From: Litorilinea aerophila
GTDB lineage: Bacteria; Chloroflexota; Anaerolineae; Caldilineales; Caldilineaceae
Direction of reading: 5' to 3'
Length of the DNA stretch: 37,619 bases
Assembly: GCA_945905745.1 (NCBI GenBank)
Contig: CAMDQF010000021.1
Location: 1 to 37,619 of the forward strand
The notes beneath the pieces are model-generated. The model had not been told where the DNA came from. It did not search any database and saw only the letters and a list, made by a program, of their open reading frames with translations. Position numbers and translations under genes: made by a program. Below, piece after piece: positions 2,260 through 27,003 of this stretch (positions are counted from its first letter, which is position 1; each line of letters starts with the position of its first letter).

Positions 2260-3411
2260 TTGCGCCAGATTCTGATGTATGATAGCCCTATGTGGCCCCA
2301 AACACAAACGCCAACACTCTGGCTCGTCTCCCCCTATCATACTGGCAGCCATCTCTCCTGGGCAGAGGGCTATGCCAGCCACAGCCGTTTGCGGGTGATT
2401 CCGCTCACGATGGCCGGGCGTTTTTGGAAATGGCGGATGCAGGGAGGCCCCATCGAACTGGCCGAACAGGCCCGGCAACTGTTGGCGACAGAGGGCCCAC
2501 CCTCGGCGATTCTGGCAACGGATATGCTCAACCTACCGGTCTGGCTGGGGCTGCTGCGGGGAGAGTTGCCTGCGGATGTGCCTGTTTCCCTCTATATGCA
2601 CGAAAACCAGCTTACCTATCCACCCCGTCCCAACGAGCAGCCAGACCTGACCTACGCCATGACCAATTGGCTCAGTCAACTGGCCGCACAGCGGGTGATC
2701 TTCAACAGCGATTACCACCGGCGAAGCTGGTTTGGCAGCCTGCCGAGTCTGCTCAAACACTTTCCCGACTATAACCATTGGGGAAAAATCGAGGCGGTGC
2801 AGGCCCGGTCGCTTGTCCTGCCCGTAGGCATCCGCTGCGGGCGGATTGACGAGGCCCGTTCGACAATCGACCAATCGGAAGAGAAGCCGCCGCTGATCCT
2901 CTGGAATCAGCGCTGGGAGTATGACAAGCGGCCGGATCGTTTCTTTCGGCTGCTCTATCGGCTGGCTGAGGAGGGGATCGATTTTCGGCTGGCCGTGGCT
3001 GGGGAGCATTTCCGGCGTCAGCCAGAGGAATTTGAGGAAGCCCGCCAGCGTCTGGCTGACCGGATTGTCCAGTGGGGCTTTGTGGAATCAGCCAGCGCCT
3101 ACCGTTTGCTGCTCTGCCGGGCCGATCTGGTCATCAGCACGGCTGACCACGAATTCTTCGGCATAAGCATTCTGGAAGCGATTGCGGGCGGTGCATTCCC
3201 TCTGCTGCCCAACCGCCTGAGCTACCCAGAACTGATCCCGACAGAGCTGCATCCGGCCTGTCTCTATGCAGACGAAGACGATCTCTACACGAAAGCGATC
3301 CATCACTTGCGACATCCCAGCCCCGCTCCGCCTTCGCTTCAGGCCCACGTGCGGAAAAAATTCGACTGGCCTGTGGTGGCCAAAGGATATGATGGCTATC
3401 TGAGTGGCTGA
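2260..3411 (+). CDS. DUF3524 glycosyltransferase, tRNA-queuosine alpha-mannosyltransferase-like (GTDC1/QTMAN family)
   Basis: N-terminal '[44 protein letters not shown]', '[10 protein letters not shown]' and '[14 protein letters not shown]' match the GTDC1-type DUF3524 signature; C-terminal GT4-like '[40 protein letters not shown]'. Start may be at the downstream ATG near 2278. Confidence 0.88.
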
Positions 3412-3915: not shown

Positions 3916-3987
<72 letters not shown>

Positions 3988-3994
3988 CTCTTTG

Positions 3995-4166: not shown

Positions 4167-7034
4167 ATGACAGCTCTCTTCCGTTCCGCCTTTCGTTCTC
4201 CGCTACAGGTCATCTGGCTGCTTCTGGCAGGGATGATTCTGACCGCCTGCAACGATCTGCCAGCGCCGCGCCTGCCCCGCCCGGTGGAAGAGGTGATGCA
4301 GGATTTCACCCTCTTTGCCGATCCTGTGGCTATGCTGGGCGAGCGCCCACCGGGCACAGTCAAAGATGCAACAGAGTACTATCTGCAACTCTTCCAGCCC
4401 GGCGAACAGCTTCCGCGTATCTTTGAAACCACCCGCATCTATGACCGCACGGGCACACTGCTGGCAGAACTTTTCAACGAAGGCCGACGCACGTGGGTGA
4501 CTCTGGATCGGATTTCCCCCTTTCTGATCGACGCCACAATTGCTACGGAAGACTCCACATTCTTTGTCAACACGGGCATTGATCCCCGGCGCATGGTGGG
4601 CGCGGCTATCCAAAACGTGGAAGCAGGCGGCGTCGTCTCCGGGGCCAGCACAATCACCATGCAACTGGCCCGCGGGCTCTTTCTCCTCGACAACAGCCGC
4701 TACGATCAATCCCTGGAACGCAAGTCCATCGAGGTTGAACTGGCCCGACAGCTTACCCTGCGCTTCTCCAAAGACGAACTCCTGGAGATGTATCTCAATC
4801 TCGCCAACTACGGAAATCTGACCTATGGGCCAGAGGCTGCGTCCCAGGTCTATTTTGGCAAGTCTGCCGCAGACCTGACAATGGCCGAAGCTACCCTTCT
4901 GGCAGGGATTCCCCAGCAGCCCGCCAATCTCGACCTCTTCACCAACTTTGACGCGGCCAGATCCCGCCAGCAGATCGTGCTGGAACTGATGGTGCGCCAC
5001 GATTATATGGAGCAGGCAGAGGCCAACGTAGTCTATGAACAGCCTATTGAGTTGATCCCTCGCTCGGATGTGGTCCGCTCGCTCACGCCCCACTTCACCC
5101 AATTCATTGAAGAATATCTGGACAGCTTTCTGACCGACGCCAATCGGGAACAGAGTGCCCCGGGCCGGGTGTGGGACTCCCGGCGGGCCGGGCTGGAAGT
5201 GACCACCAGCCTGGACCTCTCGATGCAGCGGCTGGCCGAGCGCATACTGGCCGAATCTATCACAGCCCAACAGGCCCGCTACGGTATGTCCAACGGTGCA
5301 TTGGTGGCTCTCGACCCGACCAGCGGTGGCATTCTGGCTATGGTGAGCAGTTTGGATTTTGACAACGAAGCCATCGACGGCCAGGTGAATGTGGCGATCA
5401 GCCGCCGCCAGCCGGGCAGCGCCATCAAACCGATTCTCTACGCCGCGGCCCTGGACGACAGCACCATCAGCCCCGCCACCGTCATCTGGGATACGCCGGT
5501 TAGTTATCAGCTAGGCGCAGGCCAGGCCTACCGACCGGTCAACTACGACGGACGCTTCCACGGCCCGGTCAGTGTGCGCACGGCTCTGGCCAATAGCTAC
5601 AACGTGCCTGCTGTGCGCCTGCTGCAAAGCGTCGGCGGCGAACGGATGCTCGCCGAAGCCCACAAACTGGGCATCGCCAGCCTGGACAAGAAAGCTTCCA
5701 GCTATGGCCCTAGCCTGTCCCTGGGTGCGGGCGAAGTGACTTTGCTGGAATTGACCGGAGCCTTCCGGGTCTTTGCCAATGCAGGCCAATTTACTCCGGT
5801 CAATGGGCTGCTGCGGGTAACAGACAGCCTGGGCCGGTTGCTGCCGACCCAACCCGCGCCTGTGCAGGCCATCTCGACAGCGACGGCTTTTCAGATTACG
5901 GACATTCTTAGCGACAATGTGGCCCGCACGCCTATCTTTGGCGCCAACAGTGTGCTGCTCCTGCCCTTGCCCGCGGCAGCCAAGACCGGAACTACTACCG
6001 ATTTCCGGGACAACTGGACAGTCGGCTACACCCGCCATCTGGTGGTGGGCGTCTGGGCCGGCAACAGTGATGGCACACCCATGCGGGGTTCCAGCGGCGT
6101 GAGCGGCGCGGCTCCTGTGTGGCGGACCTTTATGTTGGCTGTGACCGGCGACGAGGCCGCCCGCAGCCGTTTTGGTCTGCCCCTGGCCGAAGATCAGTGG
6201 CAGTTCACACCGCCGCCCGATGTGACCGCCATCGACATCTGCCCGCCGGGTGTAACCTGCCGGGAAGGGGGCGAGTATTTCAGCGCGGCCTGGTTGGCCC
6301 GCACATCGGTGGAAAATCCCATCGCCGATTCTGTGGTGACAGAAGTGGTGGTTCCTGCCTATCGGGACAGAAGCGGAGCTTCCTATTGGAACGCCTATTG
6401 CAAACCGGAAGATGCAAACGAAGGCGTTGCACGCACCCTGGCACGACTTTCCGGGTCGGTGGGTCTGGCACCAGAACAACCCCAAGCCGCAAAACCCCAG
6501 GCCTCGGGTGGTCTGCTTGCGGAGGCCCTGCGCCAGACGGCCTCCGGCCCTGTGATTGCCCAACCCGCGCCCACTGAGCCAATCGTCTACTATCCCGACA
6601 GCGAACTGGAGTTTTTCCGCCAGGTAGGCTCGGCCTTGAACCGGGGAGCCTCGGTCTACTTAGGCAACTGCGCCGACCTCAACTACTATACGGTGGCCCC
6701 TGGAGATAGCTGGACAGCCTTAGCCCGGCAGATGGGGCTGACCGTAGGCGAACTGCAAACGGCCAATCTGCACGTACTGCGTCAGAGCGGCTATCTGCTG
6801 GTGGGGGATCGGCTGCTCCTGCCCAGAGCGATTGTGATTGACCAGACCCAGGAGAGTGTTGTGCATACGGTTGCCGAAGGGGAATCGTGGACCTCGATTG
6901 CCGACCCGTACGACCTGCCTCTGCGTCTACTCCTTACCACCAATCCAGAGGTGGTGCGCGCCTTCTACATTCTGCGCCCCGGCGACCAACTACGGGTTCC
7001 AGTCAGCCTCTCCCAATCCGTAGAATTACGCTGA
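4167..7034 (+). CDS. Class A penicillin-binding protein (GT51 transglycosylase + transpeptidase) with two C-terminal LysM-like repeats; predicted lipoprotein
   Basis: GT51 'IATEDSTFFVNTGIDPRRMVGAAIQN...GASTITMQLAR'; transpeptidase SxxK 'PGSAIKP', SxN 'SYN', 'AKTGTTTDFRDNWTVGYT'; LysM-like 'YYTVAPGDSWTALARQMGLTVGELQTAN' and 'VVHTVAEGESWTSIADPYDLPLRLLLTTN'; lipobox 'LTAC' after the N-terminal hydrophobic segment. Confidence 0.95.
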   Translation: MTALFRSAFRSPLQVIWLLLAGMILTACNDLPAPRLPRPVEEVMQDFTLFADPVAMLGERPPGTVKDATEYYLQLFQPGEQLPRIFETTRIYDRTGTLLAELFNEGRRTWVTLDRISPFLIDATIATEDSTFFVNTGIDPRRMVGAAIQNVEAGGVVSGASTITMQLARGLFLLDNSRYDQSLERKSIEVELARQLTLRFSKDELLEMYLNLANYGNLTYGPEAASQVYFGKSAADLTMAEATLLAGIPQQPANLDLFTNFDAARSRQQIVLELMVRHDYMEQAEANVVYEQPIELIPRSDVVRSLTPHFTQFIEEYLDSFLTDANREQSAPGRVWDSRRAGLEVTTSLDLSMQRLAERILAESITAQQARYGMSNGALVALDPTSGGILAMVSSLDFDNEAIDGQVNVAISRRQPGSAIKPILYAAALDDSTISPATVIWDTPVSYQLGAGQAYRPVNYDGRFHGPVSVRTALANSYNVPAVRLLQSVGGERMLAEAHKLGIASLDKKASSYGPSLSLGAGEVTLLELTGAFRVFANAGQFTPVNGLLRVTDSLGRLLPTQPAPVQAISTATAFQITDILSDNVARTPIFGANSVLLLPLPAAAKTGTTTDFRDNWTVGYTRHLVVGVWAGNSDGTPMRGSSGVSGAAPVWRTFMLAVTGDEAARSRFGLPLAEDQWQFTPPPDVTAIDICPPGVTCREGGEYFSAAWLARTSVENPIADSVVTEVVVPAYRDRSGASYWNAYCKPEDANEGVARTLARLSGSVGLAPEQPQAAKPQASGGLLAEALRQTASGPVIAQPAPTEPIVYYPDSELEFFRQVGSALNRGASVYLGNCADLNYYTVAPGDSWTALARQMGLTVGELQTANLHVLRQSGYLLVGDRLLLPRAIVIDQTQESVVHTVAEGESWTSIADPYDLPLRLLLTTNPEVVRAFYILRPGDQLRVPVSLSQSVELR

Positions 7035-7091: not shown

Positions 7092-7173
7092 TTACGTGGG
7101 AGATAACGAAACATTTGCGGGCTACTGTTCGTTGTATGCCAAAGCACTGGACGAATGGAGCAACGGAAGACAG

Positions 7174-10026
7174 ATGATGCGGGAAACCAGTCAAGCCGAA
7201 CAATTTACCAAAGACATACAGGGCTGGGGTAAGGCGCTCCAGTTTGCGATCTGGCTGCTTTTCGGCACGATCTTTCTGGCTGCCTGCCAATCTTCTACTC
7301 AATCCATCGGCCCCCGCCCGGCCCTGGAACTCTCCGCGGTGGTCGAAGCCTATTTCCAGCAATACCAACCCGGCCCCCTGCCCCGGGTTTTCCAAACCAC
7401 CTATCTCTACGCCAGGGATGGCACGCTGCTGACCGAACTCTACGACGAGGGACGGCGCACCTGGGCTAAAATCGACCAGATTTCCCCTTTCCTCATCGAT
7501 GCCACCATCGCCACGGAAGATGCCACTTTCTTCACCAATACGGGTGTAGACCCGGCCCGCATTGCCGGCGCGGCCCTGCAAAATATGCAGGGGGAGGGCG
7601 TCGTCTCTGGGGCCAGTACCATCACAATGCAGTTGGCCCGCAACCTCTTTCTGGGCTATGACGAACGCTACGACCAGAATCTGGATCGTAAAATTCTGGA
7701 AGCCGGTCTGGCTGCGGAGCTGACCAATGCCTATACGAAAAACGAAGTGCTGGAGATGTATCTGAATCTCCTCAACTACGGCCATCTGGCCTATGGACCG
7801 GAGGCCGCGGCCCAGGTCTATTTTGGCAAATCCGCTGGGGACCTGACCCTGGCCGAGGCGACTCTCCTGGCCGGAATCCCCCAACAGCCCGCCAATCTAG
7901 ACCCTCTCCTCAATTTTGCAGGAGCGAAAGAGCGGCAGAAGATTGTCCTGGCTCTGATGGTGCGCCACGGTTTTTTGAGCGAAGCCGAGGCCAACGCGGT
8001 CTATGCCGAGGCAGTCATCCTCAACACAGCGACGGAAAGTCAGAACGCGACGGCCCCCCACTTTGTCAATTTTGTGATCGGGCAACTGGAGTCCCGCCTG
8101 GGCAGCGAATATGTGCGTCGGGCCGGTCTGCACATCTACACTACGCTGGACCCGGCCCTGCAAGCCGCGGCCCAGGAGGTGGTGACGAGCGAATTCGCCA
8201 AATTGCAGGGACGCTTTGACAACAACAACGCGGCGCTGGTGGCCCTGCTCCCGACCACAAACGATATTCTGGCGATGGTAGGCAGCCTGGACTTTTTCAA
8301 CGAAGAGATCGACGGCCAGGTCAATGTGGCGACCAGTCTGCGCCAGCCCGGCAGTTCCATCAAACCGATTCTCTACGCCACCGCGCTCAACGACAATCTG
8401 ATCAGCCCGGCCACAGTCATTTGGGACACCCCCATCACCTATACTGTCGGAGCGAACCAGACCTACACCCCCCTCAATTATGACCGCGGGATGCACGGCC
8501 CGGTGACGGCCCGGGCCAGCCTTGCCAACAGTTACAACATCCCCGCTGTCAAACTGCTGGATGGAGTGGGCGTAGCCCGGATGTTGGAAAGCGCCCAGGC
8601 CATGGGGCTACTCAGCCTATCTCGGGGGCCGGAGTGGTACGGGTTGAGCCTGACTCTTGGCGGCGGCGAGGTGACACTGCTCGATCTGGCGACGGCCTAT
8701 CAGACCCTCGCCAACGGGGGCCGCTATCTGCCCCCCCGCTACATCCTCGCCATCAGCGACGGCACAGGCCAGTCTTTGTGGGAGGATGCGGACCTGACCG
8801 GTGTCCAGGTCATCTCCGAGGCCGCGGCCAGTCTGACCACCGACATTCTGAGCGACAATCCGGCCCGCACGCCCATGTTCGGGGCTAACAGCTACCTGAC
8901 CTTGGACCGGCCTGTGGCGGCCAAGACCGGCACCACCGACGACAACCGGGATGCCTGGACAATGGGCTACACCCGCTATCTGGTCGCTGGCGTCTGGGTG
9001 GGCAACACCGATGGGCGGCCAATGAACAACGCCACCGGGGCATCCGGGGCTGGCCCCATCTGGAATGCATTTATGCGCCGTGTCAATGGGGACCCAGACC
9101 TGCTGGCCCGGATCGACGCGCCGGCTGATCTTTCGGCCTGGGAATTCCCCCTGGCGGAAGATGTGGAGTTGCGTGAAGAATGCCCGCCTGGTCTCACCTG
9201 TCGGCGGGGAGGCGGCGAACTTTTCAGCAAAGTCTGGCTGGAAGCAACGGGCGAAGCTGGCCCGCTCTCCGACACAGTTGTGCGGGCAGCCTCGGCGCCG
9301 GTCTATGCGGACCGGGGCGAGGGGGGACGGCTGGTGGGCTACTGCGGCTATGAGCAGGGAGCCACCCGTTCCCTATTGCGTCTACCCGCCGGTTTTGGCC
9401 TGCCCGAAAAGCTGACGGAAGGTGAATCAGCCCCAGCCGCTGCACAAAGCGACAACTCAGCAGCCGAAGCTCTGACCCCGGAACGTCAACGGGAGATCGC
9501 CGGGGCAGTGGCGTGGATTCTAAGCGCGGGCGGGCGGGTCTATTGGGGGCCGTGCGATGGGATGGAGAGCCTGGCCCTGGGAGAAGGGGTGCAACTCTCG
9601 ATTGACTTGGCCGCGGCGGGCCAGGAGGATATTGCGGAAACGGCTGGCGAGGGCGCAGTGGCCGTAGGCAGCCCGGCAGTGACCGGCGACTACCTCTATA
9701 TTCTCAATCAGCCAGTCTGGCATGACACCAACTGTCCCGGCGGCTATGTGGTGGGGCAGGTGTTGAATTGGGATGGCGCGCCGGTAGCCGGGGTGCGTCT
9801 GGAATTGGCCGACGCCTGGGGCAACCGCTACACGGCCTTCAGCAAAGCCGGGGCGAGCGACGCGGGCCAGTTTGATTTTCCCCTCTTCTCGGCCACGCCC
9901 CAAACCCTCTACCTGACTGTGCTGGATGGCGGCGGCAACCCAGCCAGCCCGGCGATTCCCGTGCTCCACAATGTGGATCCGGCCAGCACTTTTCCCTGCC
10001 ATCACGTAATTGTCAAAGGCGGATAG
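7174..10026 (+). CDS. Class A penicillin-binding protein, tandem paralogue; predicted lipoprotein
   Basis: Same GT51 and transpeptidase motifs ('IATEDATFFTNTGVDP...GASTITMQLARN', 'PGSSIKP', 'AKTGTTDDNRDAWTMGYT'); lipobox 'LAAC'; C-terminal 'GGYVVGQVLNWDGAPVAGVRLELADAWGNRYTAFSKAGASDAGQFDFPL' resembles a carboxypeptidase-regulatory-like fold. The track ORF starts at a GTG (7096) just after the upstream repeat; the ATG at 7174 is preferred. Confidence 0.93.
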   Translation: MMRETSQAEQFTKDIQGWGKALQFAIWLLFGTIFLAACQSSTQSIGPRPALELSAVVEAYFQQYQPGPLPRVFQTTYLYARDGTLLTELYDEGRRTWAKIDQISPFLIDATIATEDATFFTNTGVDPARIAGAALQNMQGEGVVSGASTITMQLARNLFLGYDERYDQNLDRKILEAGLAAELTNAYTKNEVLEMYLNLLNYGHLAYGPEAAAQVYFGKSAGDLTLAEATLLAGIPQQPANLDPLLNFAGAKERQKIVLALMVRHGFLSEAEANAVYAEAVILNTATESQNATAPHFVNFVIGQLESRLGSEYVRRAGLHIYTTLDPALQAAAQEVVTSEFAKLQGRFDNNNAALVALLPTTNDILAMVGSLDFFNEEIDGQVNVATSLRQPGSSIKPILYATALNDNLISPATVIWDTPITYTVGANQTYTPLNYDRGMHGPVTARASLANSYNIPAVKLLDGVGVARMLESAQAMGLLSLSRGPEWYGLSLTLGGGEVTLLDLATAYQTLANGGRYLPPRYILAISDGTGQSLWEDADLTGVQVISEAAASLTTDILSDNPARTPMFGANSYLTLDRPVAAKTGTTDDNRDAWTMGYTRYLVAGVWVGNTDGRPMNNATGASGAGPIWNAFMRRVNGDPDLLARIDAPADLSAWEFPLAEDVELREECPPGLTCRRGGGELFSKVWLEATGEAGPLSDTVVRAASAPVYADRGEGGRLVGYCGYEQGATRSLLRLPAGFGLPEKLTEGESAPAAAQSDNSAAEALTPERQREIAGAVAWILSAGGRVYWGPCDGMESLALGEGVQLSIDLAAAGQEDIAETAGEGAVAVGSPAVTGDYLYILNQPVWHDTNCPGGYVVGQVLNWDGAPVAGVRLELADAWGNRYTAFSKAGASDAGQFDFPLFSATPQTLYLTVLDGGGNPASPAIPVLHNVDPASTFPCHHVIVKGG

Positions 10027-11431: not shown

Positions 11432-11579
11432 AATCGACTGTGAATTGGTCTTCTGATCCTGTATTTGGGGACAGAATCCCAAAGACATTTTCAAGAGTAT
11501 GTCGTGTGATATTTGTTTGCCGCAGGCAGCCCCAATGTGTTGTCCGGCAATTGTAATCCATTTCCCCTTGGAGGAAAGA

Positions 11580-13493
11580 ATGAAGACAAAATCAATGAGT
11601 AAGGCCGTTAGCCTGCTCGTGCTATTGGCTCTGTTGGTGGGCGCGTTTGCCCCCGCCGTCAGTGCGCAGAGTACAGCCGTGGCTGCCAGCAGCGTAAAGG
11701 GTCTGTTGAGCGATACTGGCTCCAAACACTACCTGAGCTTGAAAGTGCTGGACCCAACCAAATCCGTCAAAGTGGTGATGGACTATCGCCAGGACAGTTC
11801 CGCCCTGGATGGTGGCGCGGGCTTCTACATCTTTAACGAAGAAGGCTTTGCCCGCTTTGTAACAGGCGCTAACCCGAACGAGACAAACCTGGCCACGGGC
11901 GCGCTGAACAGCAAGGACGGCCTGAAGCAGAAGATCGCCATCATCAGCGATCCGGTCGGCACCTTCAGCCTTGTGGCCTATAACGACTCCAACACAGCCC
12001 TGGACTACACCCTGACCGCCGAGAACGCGCTGATTGTGGATGATTCCGGCGAACAGGTAACGAACCCTGCGGCAGCAGCCAGGGAAGTTGTAGCGGTGGA
12101 GACAGAAGCAGCAGCGACGCCCGCTCCTGCGGTGACTGTCGCCGCGACCACAACCGTCAGCGAAACCGTGGCCGCTACCCCCACTGCCACCCCCGCCCCG
12201 CGCACTGTGACACCGGCGACCATTGCCCGGGCCGAGTCCTTGCAGGGCGACCTGGCCGAGCAGTTTGCCAAGCACTACTTTGATCTGGCCGTTGGCGACA
12301 TCAATAAGAGTGTCGAGATTTCGCTGGTCTACGATCCTCAGGATCAGCCAAAGCTGGACAATGGCTTCAATGTCTATGCCTTCACATCGGATCAGTTCCA
12401 GACGATGATCCGCAGCCGCCAAACACCCAGCCAGGCGGCCAACACTGCGGCGGGTACACTGACGACAGTGGGCGGGCAGAAGGCGTTGAAAGCGACTATC
12501 AACAGCCCCTTTGCCATCTACACACTGATTGTGAGCAACGACTCGACCGTCCCCGTTTCCTACACCTTGACCGTCAAAAACGGTCTGCTGGTGGATGCCT
12601 CTGGGCAGTCCAACACAGCCAAAGCACTGGTGACAACTTCTGAGGGCGCAACGGGAACCACGAGCGCCGCCAGAGGGACGACCATAGCCGCCACGACAAC
12701 CACAACCACAACCGTCAAAGCGGACCCGACCGTGGCCGCAGGCACAGTCTATGTGGTCAAGTCCGGTGACACCATCGCCACCATTGCCCGGGCCGCCTAC
12801 GGTGATGTGAATCTGTGGGATGAACTCTGCGCTTTCAACAGTCTGGCGAATTGTGACCGCATCGAAGTCGGCGACCAGATCACTGTACCCGCCAAAGCGG
12901 AACTGGGCACGGGTTCCGTGGCCGCGCCTGTCGCTGCTACGACACCGACGACTACAACCGTTCCCGTAGCGGCGACAGAGACCATAACGACAACGACACC
13001 GGTGGAGGCTACGACGCCTGTCACGACGACGGCGCCCGTCACAACGACGGCGCCTGTGACGACCACCACCCCGGCCGCGACGGGTGCCGGCACGATCATC
13101 GACGTAGCCACCAGTGCCCGGCAGTTTGAGATTCTGCTCCTGGCCCTGTCGCTCTCTAACCTGACTGACGGGCTGAAGGGTGCTGGTCCGTTCACCCTCT
13201 TTGCCCCGGCAGATGCCGCCTTTGCGGGTCTGCCAGAGAAGACCCTCGATTCTCTGCTGGCTGACACTGCACAACTGGCGAAAGTGCTTCAGTTCCATGT
13301 GGTGCCGCAGAAACTGACCGCGGCCAATATCACTGACGGTATGTCCGTCACAACGCTGATGGGCGAGACGCTGACCTTTGCAGTCTCCGGCGGCAAAATC
13401 ACTGTCAACGGTGCCAACATCAACGCCACCGAACTGCCCGCCAGCAATGGCACGGTCTTTATCATCGATTCAGTGCTCTTACCTGCTCAGTAA
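11580..13493 (+). CDS. Secreted protein: two copies of a novel N-terminal domain, one LysM, C-terminal fasciclin (FAS1) domain
   Basis: RBS GGAGG just upstream; signal peptide 'MSKAVSLLVLLALLVGAFAPAVSAQ'; LysM 'YVVKSGDTIATIARAAYGDVNLWDELCAFNSLANCDRIEVGDQITVPA'; FAS1 'FEILLLALSLSNLTDGLKGAGPFTLFAPADAAFAGLP...LLADTAQLAKVLQFHVVP...NGTVFIIDSVLLP'. Start moved from 11499. Confidence 0.93.
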   Translation: MKTKSMSKAVSLLVLLALLVGAFAPAVSAQSTAVAASSVKGLLSDTGSKHYLSLKVLDPTKSVKVVMDYRQDSSALDGGAGFYIFNEEGFARFVTGANPNETNLATGALNSKDGLKQKIAIISDPVGTFSLVAYNDSNTALDYTLTAENALIVDDSGEQVTNPAAAAREVVAVETEAAATPAPAVTVAATTTVSETVAATPTATPAPRTVTPATIARAESLQGDLAEQFAKHYFDLAVGDINKSVEISLVYDPQDQPKLDNGFNVYAFTSDQFQTMIRSRQTPSQAANTAAGTLTTVGGQKALKATINSPFAIYTLIVSNDSTVPVSYTLTVKNGLLVDASGQSNTAKALVTTSEGATGTTSAARGTTIAATTTTTTTVKADPTVAAGTVYVVKSGDTIATIARAAYGDVNLWDELCAFNSLANCDRIEVGDQITVPAKAELGTGSVAAPVAATTPTTTTVPVAATETITTTTPVEATTPVTTTAPVTTTAPVTTTTPAATGAGTIIDVATSARQFEILLLALSLSNLTDGLKGAGPFTLFAPADAAFAGLPEKTLDSLLADTAQLAKVLQFHVVPQKLTAANITDGMSVTTLMGETLTFAVSGGKITVNGANINATELPASNGTVFIIDSVLLPAQ

Positions 13494-16186: not shown

Positions 16187-17692
16187 ATGGCCCAGTCAAA
16201 ATTGGTTCTCCTTCTTATCGTGTGTCTGGTTGCCTCGCTGTTGCCTGCTCGCCACTTGGCGGCCCAACCCTTGTCTGCCGAAGATGGCGTCATTCAAGGC
16301 ACGCTTACCTTTGACAAGCGCTATGTAAGCGTGCAACCGCTGATTCTGGGACAACCTATGCGGGTTGTGATGGTCTTTGATCCCCAGGACCAGCAGGAGC
16401 TACGCCGTCGATCCGGATTTTTTGTGCTGGATGGGGATCGCTTGCGCCGTTTTTTTGCTGGTGCCAGTCTGATTGACAACAATCTGGCCGCAGGCAGCCA
16501 AGTCTCCGACCGAGCGGCCAACGAATTGGTGGCGGTAATCGATCAACCATCCGGGGAATATACGGTTGTAATCTATAACGATACGAATATTCCCATGAAC
16601 TTCCGTCTTTCAGTGGAAAACGGCGTCTTCTCTGGGGAAGAGAACAGCCCAGCCCCGGTCACCACCCAGCCAGAATCTAGCACCGCCCCGGCTGTTTCCC
16701 TGGCCCAGCCCCAAAGCCAATCGGCGGCGGCCAGTCGGGATGTCAGCGGCGATCGGGTACACACCGTACAAGCAGGCGAAACGCTGAGTCTGATCGCCCA
16801 AACGGTTTATGGCGATCTGACTCTGTACGCCCAACTATGCCGCTACAACAGCATCGCCAATTGTGATGTAATCGAAATCGGCCAGCGCTTATCAACACCT
16901 GCGCTGGCGGTGTTGAATGGTGCGGCTGCGCCAGCGTCCCCGGCGGTCGCGGCCAACGCAACGTCGGCACCGGCTGGGACTCAACCCGTGGTCGCCGCAC
17001 CCGCCAGCAGCACGACGAACAACAGCGGAGGCACCTATACAGTCGCGGCGGGCGACACACTGGGCACGATTTCCCAGAAACTCTACGGCGACTTTCAACG
17101 CTTCCGGGAAATTTGCACTCTGAACGGGCTGGGTGATTGCAACACAGTGAGCGTCGGTCAGATCTTGCGGCTGCCCGATGGCGCTGCTCCCCAGGCGACG
17201 GTGGCAGTTGTACCCCCAGCCGTCGCCCCGTCACAAGCAGTGACGGCCACCCCGTCTACGGCGGCACAGACAAGCAGCCTGGGCCTGGTCCCCACCCTTG
17301 AACAATCACGCGGGATGAGTGTTTTTGTCACCCTGTGGAAATCGACTGGCCTCTTCTCCTTATTGGAAGCCGCAGGTCCATTTACGCTCTTTGTTCCATC
17401 GGATTCAGCCTTTGCTCCGGTGATGGAGACCAATTTAACCAAGTGGATGGCGAACAAGCAGGTGTTGGAGCAGATTCTCTCCTATCATGTCCTGCTGCAA
17501 TCCTTTGATTCCACTATTGCAGCGTCGGGGCCGGTCGATCTCCCAACCCTGGAAGGCACGACCGTGCGTATAGAACGGGCAGTCGGCGGCAGACTGCTGG
17601 TCAACGGGAGACCAGTAGTCGGAACACCTGTTAACGCCAGCAATGGAACGATATACACGATTGATCAGGTGCTTTCCCCACCGGTGCCGTGA
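16187..17692 (+). CDS. Secreted protein: one copy of the novel N-terminal domain, two LysM, C-terminal FAS1
   Basis: Signal peptide; LysM 'HTVQAGETLSLIAQTVYGDLTLYAQLCRYNSIANC' and 'YTVAAGDTLGTISQKLYGDFQRFREICTLNGLGDC'; FAS1 'LLEAAGPFTLFVPSDSAFAPV...SYHVLLQ...NGTIYTIDQVL'. Confidence 0.93.
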   Translation: MAQSKLVLLLIVCLVASLLPARHLAAQPLSAEDGVIQGTLTFDKRYVSVQPLILGQPMRVVMVFDPQDQQELRRRSGFFVLDGDRLRRFFAGASLIDNNLAAGSQVSDRAANELVAVIDQPSGEYTVVIYNDTNIPMNFRLSVENGVFSGEENSPAPVTTQPESSTAPAVSLAQPQSQSAAASRDVSGDRVHTVQAGETLSLIAQTVYGDLTLYAQLCRYNSIANCDVIEIGQRLSTPALAVLNGAAAPASPAVAANATSAPAGTQPVVAAPASSTTNNSGGTYTVAAGDTLGTISQKLYGDFQRFREICTLNGLGDCNTVSVGQILRLPDGAAPQATVAVVPPAVAPSQAVTATPSTAAQTSSLGLVPTLEQSRGMSVFVTLWKSTGLFSLLEAAGPFTLFVPSDSAFAPVMETNLTKWMANKQVLEQILSYHVLLQSFDSTIAASGPVDLPTLEGTTVRIERAVGGRLLVNGRPVVGTPVNASNGTIYTIDQVLSPPVP

Positions 17693-17772: not shown

Positions 17773-19056
17773 ATGCCCCAAACAACTGCCCGCTCGTCTA
17801 ATCAATACATCGAACTGGTCCGGGAAAACCCGGACTTTCGCAATCTCTGGCTGGGCCAGGTCGTCAGCCTGTTGGGCGATTGGTTCAATCTGATCGGCTC
17901 GGCCGCGCTGATCGCGACCCTCACCGACTCCGGGGTGGCACTAAGCGGCCTCTTTGTGGTGCGGATGCTGGCCCCGTTCCTCGTCAGCCCGATAGCCGGG
18001 GTGGTGGCCGATCGCTATGACCGGCGCACAATTCTGGTCGTATCAGACCTGATGCGCGCGGGCATCGTCCTCTGTTTTCTGTTTGTACGCAGCGCCGAAA
18101 TGGTCTGGCTGCTCTATGTGCTGACCGCCCTGCAACTGGGGGTCAGCGGCTTCTTCGACCCGGCCAAGAATGCCATCCTGCCTGATGTGGTTCCCCCCCA
18201 ACGGCTGGGCGCGGCCAACGCCGTCAGCTCCGCCACCTGGTCGGTGATGATGGCCTTTGGTGCGGCTATCGGCGGTCTGGTAGCGGGGACCTGGGGCGTC
18301 TACACATCCTTCGTGCTGGATGCACTGACCTTTCTGCTCTCGGCCTTCTTCATCTGGCAGGTACGCTACCGCGCCCAGCCTGTTCAGGGTCGCCAGGGCA
18401 AAAGTATCCGCGCTGCCCTGGGCGAGTATCTAGAGGGGCTGAGCTACCTGAACCGGGAGCGGGATATTTTGATGATTGCCAGCCAGAAAGGGCTGATTGG
18501 GTTGGCGGTGGCGGGCGGTTTCAATGTGGTGCAGGTAGCGATTGCCGAGCAGGTCTTCGTCATCGGGGAGGGGGGCAGCCTGAGTCTGGGCATCTTTTTG
18601 ATGATTTTTGGCATCGGCACAGGGGTGGGGCCGATTGTGGCCCGCCGGTGGAGCGGAGATCGGGATGGTCCCCTGCGCAAGTCGATCGCGATCTTCTACG
18701 GGCTGACATCAGTCGGGCTGCTGGTTTTGGCGCCCCTGGCCGATTTCTACAGCGTTAATCTGGGAATGTTCATTCGGGGCTTTGGCGGTGGGGTGGTTTG
18801 GGTCTTTGCCACCCAACTGCTGCTGCAAAATGTGCCGGCTGCTGTACGCGGGCGGGTCTTCGCCACCGAATTCGCCATTTTTGCCCTGGCCTCGGCCATC
18901 GGCGCCGCCTGGACCGGGCTGGCGCTGGATCATCTGGGCATTTCAGCCACCCTCTGGCTGATGTTCTGGTTCAATCTGGTACCCGGTGGGATTTGGCTCT
19001 GGTGGACGTTGCGGCGCAATAGAGCCATGCGGACGGCGTCGGCGCGGCATGGGTAG
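17773..19056 (+). CDS. MFS transporter
   Basis: 'NLWLGQVVSLLGDWFNLIGSAALI', 'GVVADRYDRRTILVVSDLMRAGIV', and multiple hydrophobic segments throughout. Confidence 0.93.
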   Translation: MPQTTARSSNQYIELVRENPDFRNLWLGQVVSLLGDWFNLIGSAALIATLTDSGVALSGLFVVRMLAPFLVSPIAGVVADRYDRRTILVVSDLMRAGIVLCFLFVRSAEMVWLLYVLTALQLGVSGFFDPAKNAILPDVVPPQRLGAANAVSSATWSVMMAFGAAIGGLVAGTWGVYTSFVLDALTFLLSAFFIWQVRYRAQPVQGRQGKSIRAALGEYLEGLSYLNRERDILMIASQKGLIGLAVAGGFNVVQVAIAEQVFVIGEGGSLSLGIFLMIFGIGTGVGPIVARRWSGDRDGPLRKSIAIFYGLTSVGLLVLAPLADFYSVNLGMFIRGFGGGVVWVFATQLLLQNVPAAVRGRVFATEFAIFALASAIGAAWTGLALDHLGISATLWLMFWFNLVPGGIWLWWTLRRNRAMRTASARHG

Positions 19057-19154
19057 CTCAGTCAGGCGGATTGTGCGAGATGGTCAGCACAGGGAAAAGG
19101 TGGTATGATCTGTGTCGGATAGTATGCCCAAACTCAGTCTTGCGAGGAGGAATG

Positions 19155-21230
19155 ATGTACCACACGGACAGAGCATTGCGACTCCTTAGACAGGGGTCGG
19201 GGCTAACGGGCGCTACCTTCCGCGACGGACAGGAGGATGCAATTCGCCACATCGTTGAAGGCCGGGGTCGCTTGCTGGTCGTTCAAAAGACTGGATGGGG
19301 CAAAAGTTTCGTCTATTTTATCGCCACCAAATTGCTGCGTGAGCAAGATAACGGTCCGGCTTTGCTGATATCGCCACTGCTCGCTTTGATGCGAAATCAG
19401 ATCGCGGCAGCAGAACGTATGGGAGTGCGTGCCGCTACGATCAACTCCGACAACCAGGACGAGTGGGCTGAAGTTGAAGCCAGGCTCAATCGCAATGAGA
19501 TCGACATTCTGCTGATATCGCCCGAGCGGCTGGCGAACGAACGGTTCCGCACACAGGTTTTGGCTGGCATCGCAGCGCAGATATCGCTGCTGGTGATCGA
19601 CGAAGCTCACTGTATTTCCGATTGGGGCCACGACTTCCGTCCGCACTATCGACTGCTGGAACGGATTGTCAGAACCTTGCCACCTAATTTGCGACTTCTG
19701 GCTACCACGGCAACAGCTAATAACCGCGTGATGGAGGATCTCGCTGCAGTGCTGGGTCCGAAGTTGGAAGTGTCACGCGGCGACCTGAACCGTACTTCAT
19801 TGTCGCTACAAGCCATACGTCTGCCAAGTCAAGCTGAGCGATTGGCCTGGTTGGCAGAGCAACTCGCCACGCTTCACGGCCACGGCATCATCTACACGCT
19901 GACGGTGCATGATGCTAACCAAGTAGCTGACTGGCTGAAAACTCGGGGCTTCAATGTCGAAGCCTACACGGGTGAAACGGGTGATCGCCGGCAAGAACTG
20001 GAACTAGCACTACTCCACAATCAAGTGAAGGCACTCGTTGCCACCACGGCCCTCGGCATGGGCTATGACAAGCCGGATCTAGCATTTGTGATTCATTATC
20101 AGATGCCAGGCTCGGTTGTCGCCTACTACCAGCAGGTAGGCCGCGCAGGGCGCGCACTGGACTCCGCCTACGGTGTCTTGCTGAGTGGCGAAGAAGAAGC
20201 GAGTATCACTGACTGGTTCATCAGGAGTGCCTTCCCGACCCGGCAAGAGGTCGCTGATGTGCTGGATGCGCTTGAGAGTGAGTCCAGCGGACTATCTGTC
20301 CCCGAACTTCTGGGCCGAGTGAACTTGAGCAAGGGGCGTGTCGAGAAGACGATCGCACTGCTCTCTCTTGAATCGCCCGCACCCATCGCCAAACAAGGAA
20401 GCAAGTGGCAACTCACGGCTGCAAGGCTAAGTAATGGATTCTGGGAGCGTGCGGAGCGACTCACCGCATTGCGTCGCGACGAACACCGGCAGATGCAGGA
20501 GTATGTCAGCTTGCCCTTCGGCGAACATATGGGTTTTCTTATCCGAGCGCTCGATGGCGATCCGGGTGCTGCCACCCCTCCTCCGCTGGCCCCGTTGCCG
20601 ACCAACGTGAATGCAACGCTTGTTCGAGAAGCAGTCGCTTTTCTACGCCGTACCAGTCTGCCGATCGATCCCCGACGCCAGTGGCCCACGGGCGGTATGC
20701 CGCAATACCATGTGAGTGGACGAATTCCCGAAAACTTGCAAGCGCAGCCGGGCAAGGCGCTCTGTATTTGGGGTGATGCTGGCTGGGGTAGTATCGTCAG
20801 GCAAGGCAAGTACCGCGACAGCCACTTTGCCGATGATTTGGTCGCGGCTTGCGTGAGTATGATTCGCGAGTGGAATCCGCAACCCACACCGACCTGGGTA
20901 GCCTGCGTTCCGTCGTTACGCCACCCCAATCTCGTGCCGAACTTCGCACAACGTTTGGCTACGGTACTGGGTCTACCGTTTCATAGAGTAATTGCAAAGA
21001 CAGACAGCAGGCCCGAACAGAAAACGATAGCAAACAGTACTCAACAGGCGCGCAACATTGATGGTTCACTCGATCTTACTGGTCAGCCGATTCCGCGTGG
21101 TCCAGTGCTGTTGGTAGACGATATGGTGGATTCGCGCTGGACACTAACTGTGTCAGCGTGGCTCTTACGCAGAAACGGCAGCGGCGAGGTATGGCCGATA
21201 GCGCTTTCGCAAACGGGGCATGACCAATGA
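19155..21230 (+). CDS. RecQ-like superfamily 2 helicase fused to a C-terminal ComF-like phosphoribosyltransferase domain
   Basis: Motif I '[14 protein letters not shown]'; motif II '[22 protein letters not shown]'; '[16 protein letters not shown]'; '[49 protein letters not shown]'; C-terminal '[25 protein letters not shown]...[29 protein letters not shown]'. GAGGAGG lies 4 nt upstream of the ATG at 19155; the track start 19071 has no better support. Confidence 0.9.
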
Positions 21231-22591
21231 CGCCATCTCTTTCACCCAACACCCAAGCGATTCTTCTGTTGACAGCACCGTTACTCGCCGGACGTTCCAC
21301 TTTGTCGCCAGACCTTCTGTCGCCTGGTGAGTATAAACGCCTGGCTCGTCACCTGCGTGAAATGCAGCGCCAGCCCGCAGATTTGTTGTCTCCTGATGCG
21401 GCAAGTCTGCTGCGTGCCTGCCAACCCGTTGTTGAAGAAGGCCGCTTACAGCGCTTGTTGGGGCGCGGTTTTCTATTGAGCCAGGTGTACGAGCATTGGC
21501 AAGCCCGCGCTCTGTGGGTGGTCAGTCGTGCAGATGCTGACTACCCACAGCGCTTGAAGACGCGATTGCGGGAAGACGCACCTGCAGTGCTGTACGGCTG
21601 TGGCAATATCAGTTTTCTAGAAACCGGCGGACTCGCCGTAGTTGGATCGCGTTATGTGGATGACTTGTTGATTGGTTATACGATGGACATCGGCCGACTC
21701 GCAGCCCGTGCAGGCAAGACGCTCGTCTCTGGGGGAGCAAAGGGCATTGACCAAGCGGCCATGCGGGGTGCGTTGGAGGCAGGCGGCAAAGTCATTGGTG
21801 TTCTTGCGGATAGTCTTGAGAAAACTACTATGAACCGCGAACACCGCGATCTGCTGATCAACGGTCAGTTGGTGCTGATCTCGCCCTACGATCCGATCGC
21901 TGGCTTTAACGTTGGTAATGCCATGCAACGCAATAAGCTGATCTATGCGTTGGCCGATGCTTCATTGGTGGTGAATTCCGATCTCAATATGGGCGGTACC
22001 TGGGCTGGCGCAACCGAACAACTGGACAAACTCCGGTTGGTTCCCATCTATGTGCGATCAACGGGAGATTTTTCTCCCGGTCTTGATGCCCTAAGAAATA
22101 GGGGGGCCATCCCTTGGCCGAATCCGCAAGATGTGGATGCGTTCGAGGCCGTGTTTGATATAGTCACGCCAACAGTCGCACCAACTACTTCGGCATCGCT
22201 TCAGCCCGGTCTCTCACTATTTTCAACCGATGGGCCGCTTGACACACTGCCTACACCTCCAATCATTGATGAAAGGTTGTCAGTGTTAGAAAGCGTGAAC
22301 GGGGAGTCGCCATTGATGACACAAGAACCAAAGGCTAATACGACCAACACAGTGACACAGACGGAGTGCAGCCCAGCAGATGCTCTGTTTACAGCGGTGC
22401 GTGAAGTAGTAACTCAGCGGCTTTTGAAAGTTCCGATGAAGGACGTCGAGGTTGCTGTCGCGCTGGATGTGTCAAACGCTCAGGCTAAGGCGTGGCTACA
22501 GCGCCTTGTCGACGAAGATGTAGTAAAAAGACAAAACAAACCAGTACGTTATGTAGCAAGTTTACCGCAGTTGTTTTCGAATAATAGTTGA
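21227..22591 (+). CDS. Divergent DprA/SMF-family protein with C-terminal winged-helix-like region
   Basis: '[66 protein letters not shown]', '[40 protein letters not shown]'. ATGA overlap with the upstream stop codon. Confidence 0.9.
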
Positions 22592-22619: not shown

Positions 22620-24335
22620 GTGTCTACGAGCAAAGTCATTGTGAGCTATGAACCTCAAGCGTTGTCGCTGCGTAACAAATGGCTGCTCTCCTGCGTCATC
22701 TCTTTGCTGATCCTTCTCATCTCCGCCCATCCCCTCCTGGCCCAATCCCCCGTGACCGGCGAAGCGCTGGTGCGCGGTACGCTCAATAGTCCCTATACCC
22801 GCCATATCCTCACCCTCTCTGCCTGGGACCCGGCCAAACCGATAGTCATTTTGCTCGAATACTCGCCCCAAGGGCGCTGGGAACTGGACGACAATTCCGG
22901 CTTCTTCGTCTTTGACCAGATCGGCTACGACCGTTTCCGCAGCGGAGAGCTTCCTGGCGCGGTGAGCGTGGCCGCAGGCAACCAACTGTCCGGCGAAGGC
23001 AGACGCCTGCAAGCCACCATCGGCGCGCCCGTTCCCGGAACTTTCTACGTCGTCGTCTACAACAATTCGATCCTGCCCATGGGCTATACCCTGCGCGCCA
23101 CCAATGGAGGCTTCAGCGATAACGGTGGACAGGTAATTGCTGGCAGCGCACCTGGCCCGGTTGGTGACGGCAGTGACGTCTTCCCGCTGGTGGCAGTGCC
23201 TGGCCCCACGCCCGTTCCGCTCCCTACGCCTACGCCGCTCCCACCCCTGCGCGCCTCGGCAGTGCGTGGCCTGCTGGACAAACGCTACGCCCAGGACTTT
23301 TTCCTGCTGGAAGTGGTGGACACAGGTCTGCCCATCTCAATCGAAATGGTCTACGACCCGGCGGAACAGATTCTCCTGCTGGACAGTTTCAACTTTTGGC
23401 TTTTCGACGAAGAGCAGTTCCGCACCCAGGCGATCAGCGGGTCGCGCCCGGAGTTCGAGCCGAACCGGGCCGCCGGTACACTTATCGAGCGGGACGGTGC
23501 GCCCCCGCTGTGGACAGCCACGATTGCGCAGCCGCTGGAGCGCTATTGGCTGGTAGTCAACCAACACGCGCACGCGCTTTCGGTAGGCTACCGGCTGACT
23601 GTGCAGAATGGCGTGCTGGTGGACGAAGGAGAGCAAGCCCAGGCCGTCTATACCCATCCCCGCACGTTGCCCGGTCTGGGCAGCACACTCTGGATTGTCC
23701 GCCCTGGGGAGACGCTGGGTACGATTGCCCAGGCGGTCTACGGCAACCGGGGCTATTACGCGGCCATCTGTGCCGCCAACGGCCTCTTCAACTGCAACCG
23801 GCTGGTCAGCGGTCAACGGCTGATTCTGCCGCCTGCCGCTTCTCTCCCATCCATTGCCCCCCCATCCCGCCCCCTTATCCAGTCCAGCCCATCGCCAGCC
23901 GGTGGCGCGCCTATCAGCGGCGCACCCGTCGCCGACAACCTGCTGGAAGTGGCCGCAGGGCAGGCCAGCCTGCAAGCCTTCCGGGATATGCTGGGCCAGA
24001 CATCGCTGGCCGACACGTTGCAGAGTGCAGGCGCGTACACCCTTTTTGCGTTCACCAACGATGCTTTTGACGCACTGCCCCTGGAAACCCAGGATGAACT
24101 GCTGCTGGACCCGGCGCGGGCGCTTAGCTTGCTCTCTGGACAGGTGGCAAAAGGTCGACTGCGCCCGGATTGGGTGAGTACCCGCACAAAGCATATCACC
24201 ACCCTGGACAACCGATTGCTGCGTTTGGATCCGGACGGCGCGGACGGTTTTACGGTGAATGGCTTTTCCGTCAGCACCGGGCCGATTGAGGCGGCCAATG
24301 GGGTGATTTATGTGGTGGATGGGGTGATTGAGTAG
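22620..24335 (+). CDS. Secreted protein: two copies of the novel N-terminal domain, one LysM, C-terminal FAS1
   Basis: GTG start; signal peptide 'WLLSCVISLLILLISAHPLLAQ'; LysM 'WIVRPGETLGTIAQAVYGNRGYYAAICAANGLFNCNRLVSGQRLILPP'; FAS1 'FRDMLGQTSLADTLQSAGAYTLFAFTNDAFDALP...NGVIYVVDGVI'. An in-frame GTG at about 22638 is an alternative start. Confidence 0.9.
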   Translation: MSTSKVIVSYEPQALSLRNKWLLSCVISLLILLISAHPLLAQSPVTGEALVRGTLNSPYTRHILTLSAWDPAKPIVILLEYSPQGRWELDDNSGFFVFDQIGYDRFRSGELPGAVSVAAGNQLSGEGRRLQATIGAPVPGTFYVVVYNNSILPMGYTLRATNGGFSDNGGQVIAGSAPGPVGDGSDVFPLVAVPGPTPVPLPTPTPLPPLRASAVRGLLDKRYAQDFFLLEVVDTGLPISIEMVYDPAEQILLLDSFNFWLFDEEQFRTQAISGSRPEFEPNRAAGTLIERDGAPPLWTATIAQPLERYWLVVNQHAHALSVGYRLTVQNGVLVDEGEQAQAVYTHPRTLPGLGSTLWIVRPGETLGTIAQAVYGNRGYYAAICAANGLFNCNRLVSGQRLILPPAASLPSIAPPSRPLIQSSPSPAGGAPISGAPVADNLLEVAAGQASLQAFRDMLGQTSLADTLQSAGAYTLFAFTNDAFDALPLETQDELLLDPARALSLLSGQVAKGRLRPDWVSTRTKHITTLDNRLLRLDPDGADGFTVNGFSVSTGPIEAANGVIYVVDGVIE

Positions 24336-24507: not shown

Positions 24508-27003
24508 CTATCGTTGCACGCTGGGCAAATAGACAGACGACTTTTCTATATTCGTATTGGCTGATGTAGGCGTCGCAGTGGGTGTTGTTGTCGGCGTCGC
24601 GGTGACAGTGGCTGTTGCAGTCCCAGTAGGTGTCGCAGACGGTGTAGATGTAACGGTCGGTGTCCCGTTGCTGGGAGAGGTAGCCGACGGAGTCGCGGTT
24701 GGGGTCGCTGTAGCTGTAGCTGTAGCCGTAGCTGTGGCAGCCCTTGTGGCGGTTGTGGTCGGGGTCGCGGTCGCCGTGGTGGCTGGCTGGCTGAGCTTCC
24801 ACGCTTGCAGCAATTGGCGCAGGGCCTCCGGCGGGTTCTGGGGCGAGAGATTGCCCTTCTGGTCTTTGTCGCTCAGCCCGTGGCAGGCAGCGCAGACCCG
24901 CACTTCGCCAGGCTGAAAGGTGAGCCAATAGCGCTCCCGCACCACACCGTTCCCCTCGCCGTCGGTTAGCTGCCAACTCATGGCACGCCGGGCCGGAACA
25001 AAGGCCGCCATCGATCCATCGGTCGCGATCTCCACGCTGGACGGCACATCCTCGTCTAGTGTATTGGCGGCCAGGGCTTCGGCGTCATGCATATATTGGG
25101 CCAATACCCGGCGACCGTCCCGGGGCTCGTTGCCGCCAAAGCTCAATCCCCGTATCTGATCCCCCTGAAAAAATTGCATATAGGCAACCTCATAGACCGT
25201 GCCCGGTTTGCCGATTGTCTCCGCGCCGCCACCCCGCACCCGCAGGTTGAAGGGCTGTTGGATGTCGAAATCATCCCGCACAGTCACATTGCGGCTGACG
25301 GCCAGGGCCAGGTTGCGCTGGCGCATATAGGCCTGCAAATCGGCCAACGCAACCCCTTCTTCGGCCAAAATCTGTAGCTCCGGCGCCTGCAGAGGGGTAG
25401 TCAGCCGGGGCGGGCGCACGCGCGAACGCACCTCTACCGGCTGCAATTCCCAGAGAAATCCGCTGTAAGTCACCTTCACATCAGGACTCCAAAAGCTGAT
25501 CGTCTCGCTGATGCCGGTTGTCACCTCGGCCCCGGCCTCGAAGATGCCATCAACCCGGTCGGCCACAAAGCGCAGACGAAAATCGTAGCGGGAGCGGGGG
25601 CTGGCCGTGCTGCCGTCGTTGCGATCTTCCCGGGTCTCGGCGGTGTGGGTGGCCATCAGCCGCCCATTGGAGAGGGGCAGTGGGTCCCGGTAGAGGCCGG
25701 AATGATCCGCGCTGGGGTTGTCGCTAGTGGAGCGGGTCTCCTCGTGGGTGACATAGACCAGGGCGATGTGGTCGGCGTCCACAGTGGGCGGCGCGTCCAG
25801 GCGCACAATCTGGCCCGCGGCGTGGGTGGCAAATTCAGGCGCATTCACAGCAAAGTAGTGGCCTAGGCTGGTGGGGTCCTCTTTAATTTGCAGATAGTTT
25901 TCTGCGCTGTTGGGGTTGAAGCGGCTGTATTGGCCGTAGAACTCCTCGATATTGTTGTCGTCTGTGCGCCCCCCAGGGATATAGCCGTGCAGTTCGTGGC
26001 GGCCCAGGTGGTTGATCACTTCGCTTTCTGTGCCGTCTTCGTTGATGGTCCAGGGGAAGAAGTGGTTGAACCGATGGCCGGTCAAGACGCTGCCGCCCCC
26101 CTCTGGTTCAACCCTGGGTTCGGGGAAGACCTCAGCCCGGTTGGTCAGGGCCACCGAATTCAGCGCTTCGCTGCTGTAGTTGAAGGTGCAATAGGTGCAA
26201 GCGCCCCCATTTGCCTCGGCTTCGTTGTCACTGTCCGCCTGCTGATCCCGCTGCAAGTGATCCCACTGGGTAAAGAGCACCCGCCCAAAGCTGTCGATGG
26301 AGGGGGTGAAATCGCCGGAGGGCGCGTGGTTGAGCAAGAAGAGATCGCCCGTGGTTGGGTCCAAACTCCAGAGGCCGCTGACTGTCGGCGCTTCTTCGTA
26401 TTCGTCCAGTTGGGGGTAGAGATGGGCCTCGCCACCCCGGGGCCGGTCTGTGGTAAAGATGATGCGGTCGTCGGTGCCGTAGATGGGGCTGATGTTGTTG
26501 AAGTTGGCGGGCTGGTTGGACACTTTTGTGATGACCGGCGTCTGGTTCTGGCCTAGACCCGTGATTTCGTAGAGTTGCCAGTAGTAGCTATTGACCTGAT
26601 ACTGCTGGGTCGGCGCGCCGATGACCATACTGAAAAGTGCCTTTGTGCCGTCCCAATGCACCGACGGGTCGCGCACAGCGATGGCGGTCGCGCCCTGCAT
26701 CCCAGCCATACCGTAGCCCGCGGCCGCAGTTAGATTCTTCTGGGTTCCGTCCGGGTAGCGAATCCAGAGGTCGCCGCCGCGGGCTACCGAATCCATATCC
26801 GCCCGGTGGTTGCCAAAGACCGCGCCGATGGTGGTAAAGTCGGCAGCAATCGGGAATTGGGTGACAAAGAGAATGGGATTGGGCAGTTGGTTGGCCTGGC
26901 CGTGCAGAGGGGTGGAATCCGCCGGAAAGACAGAAAAAGTGACGGCGAAGGCGAAAAGGATACGGATGAAGACGCGGGTGACGAAGTGTAGACGGACGGG
27001 CAT
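24508..27003 (-). CDS. Secreted hydrazine-synthase-alpha-like (HZS_alpha) protein with one CXXCH heme motif and Thr-rich C-terminus
   Basis: Signal-like N-terminus; 'PIYGTDDRIIFTTDRPRGG...LWSLDPTTGDLFLLNHAPSGDFTPSIDSFGRVLFTQWDH', 'QPGEVRVCAACHGLSDK' (CAACH at 24880-24894), then a TPTAT-type linker ending 'IEKSSVYLPSVQR'. Confidence 0.75.
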   Translation of the reverse strand: MPVRLHFVTRVFIRILFAFAVTFSVFPADSTPLHGQANQLPNPILFVTQFPIAADFTTIGAVFGNHRADMDSVARGGDLWIRYPDGTQKNLTAAAGYGMAGMQGATAIAVRDPSVHWDGTKALFSMVIGAPTQQYQVNSYYWQLYEITGLGQNQTPVITKVSNQPANFNNISPIYGTDDRIIFTTDRPRGGEAHLYPQLDEYEEAPTVSGLWSLDPTTGDLFLLNHAPSGDFTPSIDSFGRVLFTQWDHLQRDQQADSDNEAEANGGACTYCTFNYSSEALNSVALTNRAEVFPEPRVEPEGGGSVLTGHRFNHFFPWTINEDGTESEVINHLGRHELHGYIPGGRTDDNNIEEFYGQYSRFNPNSAENYLQIKEDPTSLGHYFAVNAPEFATHAAGQIVRLDAPPTVDADHIALVYVTHEETRSTSDNPSADHSGLYRDPLPLSNGRLMATHTAETREDRNDGSTASPRSRYDFRLRFVADRVDGIFEAGAEVTTGISETISFWSPDVKVTYSGFLWELQPVEVRSRVRPPRLTTPLQAPELQILAEEGVALADLQAYMRQRNLALAVSRNVTVRDDFDIQQPFNLRVRGGGAETIGKPGTVYEVAYMQFFQGDQIRGLSFGGNEPRDGRRVLAQYMHDAEALAANTLDEDVPSSVEIATDGSMAAFVPARRAMSWQLTDGEGNGVVRERYWLTFQPGEVRVCAACHGLSDKDQKGNLSPQNPPEALRQLLQAWKLSQPATTATATPTTTATRAATATATATATATPTATPSATSPSNGTPTVTSTPSATPTGTATATVTATPTTTPTATPTSANTNIEKSSVYLPSVQR

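Follow-up and report, generated by a model that had tools for sequence, protein, structure and literature searches.

The window, a 37,619-nt stretch of a Litorilinea aerophila (Chloroflexota) contig, contains a RecQ-like helicase gene overlapping a DprA/SMF-like gene, and it raises the question of what this pair encodes and how it came to lie between a transporter gene and a gene for a LysM/fasciclin (FAS1) protein. A sequence-only reading had noted the ATGA overlap and a phosphoribosyltransferase (PRTase)-like C-terminus of the helicase, and had taken the pair for a toxin–antitoxin (TA) or anti-phage module, namely a helicase-fused relative of ShosTA. Indeed, both frames are open and overlap as described, and the Pfam domains of the flanking genes agree with an MFS and a LysM/FAS1 gene (Table 1). 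The proposed class was upheld as well, but the family turned out to be another: the pair is very probably PsyrTA (RqlHI), a toxin–antitoxin operon that is intact, was acquired horizontally and occupies a defence-exchange site of a Chloroflexota host, bordered by an MFS and a LysM/FAS1 gene. For psyrT, we preferred the ATG at 19155 (691 aa) to an alternative in-frame upstream TTG that would give 719 aa, since homologues align from about residue 1–2 of the 691-aa form.

Table 1 Features of the psyrTA locus in the window
Feature	Position	Strand	Description
psyrT / rqlH	19155..21230	+	691 aa; RecQ-like helicase ~20–345, middle region ~346–484, predicted PRTase domain ~485–691
psyrA / rqlI	21227..22591	+	454 aa; PADLOC PsyrA, PF02481, model and folds
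psyrA parts			N-terminal helical; SLOG/DprA Rossmann ~92–291; disordered linker ~324–378; winged-helix-like C-terminal ~383–444
Walker A GKS (K50)	19299..19307	+	Equals K49 of E. coli RqlH
PRPP-loop-like motif, residues 651–663	21105..21143	+	D656 corresponds to E. coli RqlH D663, which is critical for toxicity
MFS transporter, left border of exchange site	17773..19056	+	PF07690; orthologues in six congeners
LysM/FAS1 protein, right border of exchange site	22620..24335	+	PF02469, PF01476
Leader, MFS stop codon to psyrT	19057..19112	+	Local alignment; consensus scan

The PADLOC models PsyrT and PsyrA were the top full-length matches for the two window proteins. The psyrT product scored 921 bits (1e-277), with residues 4–690 covering profile positions 5–687 of 689, and the psyrA product scored 454 bits (1e-136) over residues 5–443, which is also near full length. 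The runner-up for the helicase protein, DpdF (294 bits), a RecQ-like helicase family with domains in common, was rejected in favour of the far higher-scoring PsyrT. The runner-up for the DprA-like protein was ShosA with 85.6 bits (9e-25), so that the match foreseen by the sequence-only reading exists, but PsyrA is far better. In Pfam, DEAD (2.9e-25) and Helicase_C (4e-16) were found in the psyrT product, which narrowly passed the cutoff of the RecQ-family NCBIfam model (224 vs 219.8 bits), and DNA_processg_A (PF02481, 2.6e-35) was found in the psyrA product. The features that mark PsyrTA/RqlHI, i.e. helicase motifs, a PRTase with a DD motif and an overlapping downstream DprA-like gene, are all present. 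Compared with E. coli strain FDAARGOS_497, identity is 49% for the RqlH-type protein (694 aligned columns) and 41% for its partner (348 columns). Judged by these matches, the window pair is a member of this family, and the system itself is already known: PsyrTA was cloned as a TA system in 2013 (Sberro 2013, as cited in PMC9122126), and RqlHI was characterised genetically in extraintestinal E. coli in 2015 (Russell & Mulvey 2015, PMC4670107). The doubt that the earlier reading itself had voiced about the novelty of the fusion was thus justified.

A housekeeping DprA was considered for the psyrA product and rejected, as the protein scored 85.5 bits with TIGR00732 against a cutoff of 191. A separate, canonical DprA is encoded on contig C24 of the same genome (268.8 bits), and we therefore do not regard the psyrA product as the housekeeping copy. 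The genome also encodes further RecQ-like helicases elsewhere.

The C-terminus of the helicase protein stayed below the threshold of Pfam Pribosyltran (17.5 vs 26.3 bits for the isolated C-terminus; 0.018 for the whole protein). A profile of this region made from 63 homologues matched PRPP synthetases over the motif (1.6e-5), and an AlphaFold2 model based on a 63-sequence alignment (pLDDT 92.9, pTM 0.89) had H. pylori ComF as its best structural match, followed by adenine PRTases (APRT), PurF, PRPP synthetases and ShosT (rank 42). The TM-scores of these matches were moderate, about 0.35–0.5, which points to a PRTase fold with elaborations of its own; the sequence matches included no solved PsyrT structure. 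By profile and model, the C-terminus of the psyrT product is a PRTase, in line with what had been read from the motif.

The residues expected to matter are conserved throughout the family. K50, D149, H152, R330, R333 and D655 were kept in 107 of 107 aligned sequences, and D656 and W662 in 106 of 107. Aligned with E. coli RqlH, the window protein has K50, D149 and D656 at the positions of K49, D148 and D663, so that all three residues are intact. The motif of the PsyrT family reads L[VI]DDx[VI]DS[RG]WT, and its PRPP synthetase counterpart in the alignment is DDMIDTGGT; Trp662 stands at a position that is taken by a small residue in known PRTases and PRPP synthetases. Because a bulky residue replaces a small one here, the reaction may differ from that of other PRTases. 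We tentatively propose, while regarding it as rather doubtful, that the PRTase catalyses a non-salvage reaction (e.g. breakdown of PRPP, or transfer of a phosphoribosyl group to bases that its own helicase exposes) that is released upon loss of the DprA-like partner, and that the genus also swaps such modules with restriction-modification systems at a fixed, promoter-carrying site. The near-invariant, atypical PRPP loop of the 107 sequences flags the residues with which the PRTase reaction could be probed.

The best structural matches of the PsyrA model included S. pneumoniae DprA and, at rank 3, ShosA. A co-occurrence survey, which the earlier reading had suggested, showed that, of 102 full-length loci that could be tested, 97 have a DprA-like gene adjoining psyrT, at a distance of no more than about 60 bp in 94 cases. 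With the catalytic residues kept in 107 sequences and the partner adjacent in 97 of 102 loci, the observation is far beyond chance. The PsyrT and PsyrA trees were correlated in a mirror-tree comparison (Spearman 0.66; 0 of 500 permutations as high), which is no proof of interaction, since such a correlation is expected for co-transferred neighbours. The phylum also harbours highly divergent, long-branch relatives of PsyrT (L093, L131 and L134), and no PsyrA was detectable within 1.5 kb of L093.

Among named genomes, the PsyrT proteins closest to that of the window come from Proteobacteria such as Solimonas (85% identity) and Mesorhizobium (81%) rather than from the host family; copies from Chlorobiaceae, Yersinia nurmii and P. 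syringae follow with 78%, 77% and 76%, respectively. In a quick tree without bootstrap, the window copy fell into a supported clade (SH-aLRT 95) together with the Mesorhizobium, Solimonas, Yersinia and P. syringae copies. Copies from the same family as the host (G021 and G031) are 59–61% identical to the window copy and distant from it in the tree, and full-length PsyrT is absent from all six congeners. In the host family, PsyrT occurs in 4 of 36 genomes, two of the four copies being truncated by contig ends; in a 400-genome sample of the phylum, a near-complete PsyrT is encoded by about 34, other matches being mostly RecQ-like helicases only. Genomes labelled as belonging to the host's phylum encode proteins identical to those of named Roseiflexus and Chloroflexi records, which agrees with a Chloroflexota host. 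This foreign phylogeny identifies the window copy, as far as sequence comparison goes, as horizontally acquired, and makes it a clean case of PsyrTA movement between phyla. Among 50,697 phage records, no phage-borne copy was found at E≤1e-60, and copies on plasmids were seen in just 13 records, some of which are very large replicons.

We then compared the site in seven genomes, i.e. the window and six congeners (site regions L150–L155). Orthologues of the MFS gene (81–90% identical) and of the LysM/FAS1 gene (64–76%) are present in all six congeners. The site is empty in G001, G004 and G006, where the two genes are adjacent; in G001 and G006, the MFS stop codon overlaps or abuts the LysM/FAS1 start. 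In G002, the site holds about 0.5 kb without convincing genes. In G003, the cargo is a type II system of methyltransferase (440 bits) and restriction enzyme (518 bits); in G005, a nucleotidyltransferase (MNT) and a HEPN protein are accompanied by a type III system, whose methyltransferase scored 587 bits and whose restriction enzyme scored 904 bits. The adjacency in three of six congeners argues strongly, at the level of sequence, for an insertion at this site, as had been supposed from the envelope-gene neighbourhood of the pair. As a separate observation, the G002 stretch (L153:4627-5121) contains short palindromes and a leader-like GTGGTATTATCTG element, and may be a scar that a former cargo left behind.

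The window, G003 and G005 have a leader in common after the MFS stop codon (local scores 35–78 vs shuffle maxima of 24–26); the window leader scored 48 and 35 against those of the two congeners with other cargo (shuffle maxima 26 and 24). The leader holds a predicted extended −10-like promoter element, TGGTCA-17-TATGAT, at 19081–19109. In the consensus scan from which it comes, promoter-like sites were weakly above chance, and terminator-like sites were not above chance. The sequence directly upstream of the LysM/FAS1 start is likewise common to the window and G005 (79 vs 25). With these borders shared, three unrelated defence cargoes lie between the same ends, which suggests that the MFS–LysM/FAS1 site is a defence hotspot. 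A search around the pair for a duplicated target or att sites gave nothing convincing, as the 19-bp repeat that it returned is only 79% identical and lies inside genes; our simplest guess is that cargo is exchanged by recombination between the conserved flanks. The contamination estimate for the assembly is 6.98%, and both flanks of the pair are syntenic with the congeners.

Additional LysM/FAS1 genes lie at 11499–13493 and 16187–17692, so that the block contains three with the one at the right border; the middle gene (16187–17692) is absent from this position in two congeners and present as two diverged copies in another. Elsewhere in the window, tandem class A penicillin-binding proteins are encoded at 4167–7034 and 7096–10026, of which the first carries a LysM domain at its C-terminus. 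The gene at 2260–3411 encodes a protein with a tRNA-queuosine mannosyltransferase N-terminal domain (PF12038, 2e-51) and lies upstream of a tRNA-Cys gene (3917–3988). The 831-aa product of 24508–27003 on the minus strand matches the middle domain of hydrazine synthase alpha (5e-10), probably owing to domain sharing only.

Close relatives of the window copy have defence genes as neighbours. In Solimonas, the neighbours are a WYL regulator and HsdM/HsdS, in Mesorhizobium a DRT9 reverse transcriptase, in Yersinia a DUF2326 protein and in P. syringae a capP-like protein, while one E. coli copy has an ABC-three-component system and conjugation genes next to it; this survey covers a handful of the closest relatives, without a matched control. 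The sequence-only reading had named vertical inheritance outside defence contexts as an observation that would count against it; instead, the homologues are patchy, transferred and found beside defence genes.

The way in which the pair might act can be drawn from E. coli. There, RqlH without RqlI causes SOS induction, filamentation, mutation and DNA-damage sensitivity via its PRTase domain, and growth inhibition and SOS induction are abolished by Δ509–690 or D663A (PMC4670107). The isolated PRTase domain is non-toxic in E. coli, and toxicity therefore needs more of RqlH (PMC4670107). RqlI restrains RqlH, and its co-precipitation of RqlH requires the PRTase domain; residues 1–320 of RqlI, lacking the HTH, are enough for this restraint, to which the helicase activity of RqlH also contributes (PMC4670107). 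The roles of the PRTase as effector and of the DprA-like protein as inhibitor, which had also been suggested for the window pair from its sequence, agree with this genetics and are assigned here by analogy to it. By the same analogy, PsyrA would hold PsyrT inactive, PsyrT's own helicase activity adding to the restraint of the toxin, and the PRTase might be set free when an invader interferes with DNA ends, with recombination or with PsyrA. The freed PRTase would consume PRPP or alter bases or nucleotides at DNA, and the resulting genome damage could arrest the infected cell before phages are released. For the window copy, trigger, substrate and phage protection are conjectural, as are the sensing roles that had been suggested for RecQ and the DprA-like protein. 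PsyrTA is classed as a defence system in PADLOC and, with Millman 2022 cited as the source, in PMC10121019. In E. coli NILS69, its overexpression led to a growth defect and phage protection was not detectable (PMC12409345), which makes the anti-phage role less secure than the TA role.

The absence of detectable protection in NILS69 would also fit a genome-maintenance or DNA-repair module that serves host recombination, with toxicity as an artefact of imbalance. Such a role would be in keeping with the widespread occurrence of RqlH without RqlI, apparently tolerated in Gram-positive bacteria (PMC4670107), and with M. smegmatis RqlH, which is described in PMC4670107 as an active helicase whose PRTase is dispensable. 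However, the pair is patchily distributed and horizontally transferred, restriction-modification systems occupy the same site in congeners, relatives have defence genes beside them, and the genome carries its canonical DprA and other RecQ-like helicases. We therefore consider a repair module improbable.

The fold comparisons bear on two further readings. H. pylori ComF tops the structural matches of the PRTase and DprA acts in transformation, so that the pair could be likened to ComFA helicase, ComFC PRTase and DprA in a competence-like DNA-uptake module, a parallel also drawn in PMC4670107 and PMC5512222. Yet no competence genes were recognised beside the pair in the window, a separate canonical DprA is present, few family members have the pair, and defence genes stand beside its relatives; we regard this reading as very improbable. 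The combination of PRTase and DprA is also the logic of ShosTA, and both ShosT and ShosA are among the structural matches, ShosA with a profile match in addition. Nevertheless, the PsyrT and PsyrA profiles are ahead by hundreds of bits, even the isolated PRTase scored 237 bits for PsyrT vs 16.7 bits (0.0012) for ShosT, and ShosT has no RecQ helicase, whereas the window protein does. A helicase-fused member of the ShosTA family is therefore hardly credible, and we rejected it. For the PsyrTA operon that we favour, the evidence of cross-phylum transfer and of a defence-exchange site adds to what is known of the family and changes nothing categorical. Anti-phage activity of PsyrTA is weakly documented so far, and its exchange at the same spot as restriction-modification systems speaks in favour of a role in defence.

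Among named systems, PsyrTA of P. syringae has the same gene order and overlap, its copy (L053) being 76% and 60% identical to the two window proteins; the window pair differs in its Chloroflexota host and its location in a local exchange site, and its PsyrA exceeds the 398-position PsyrA model and carries a long disordered linker. RqlHI of E. coli has the same architecture, gene order and intact key residues, but is only about half identical to the window pair, which is known here from its sequence. M. smegmatis RqlH also joins a RecQ-like helicase to a C-terminal PRTase, but works without a DprA-like partner. ComFC and DprA of competence have the PRTase and DprA folds, respectively, but are encoded by separate genes in another context. 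ShosTA pairs a PRTase toxin with a DprA-like antitoxin of the same folds; ShosT is reported to have both phosphoribosyltransferase and pyrophosphatase activity and to perturb purine metabolism, and ShosA to be an antitoxin that binds DNA (Pu et al. 2025, summarised in PMC12593503). In contrast to the window pair, ShosTA lacks the RecQ helicase, and the profile similarity between the two is weak.
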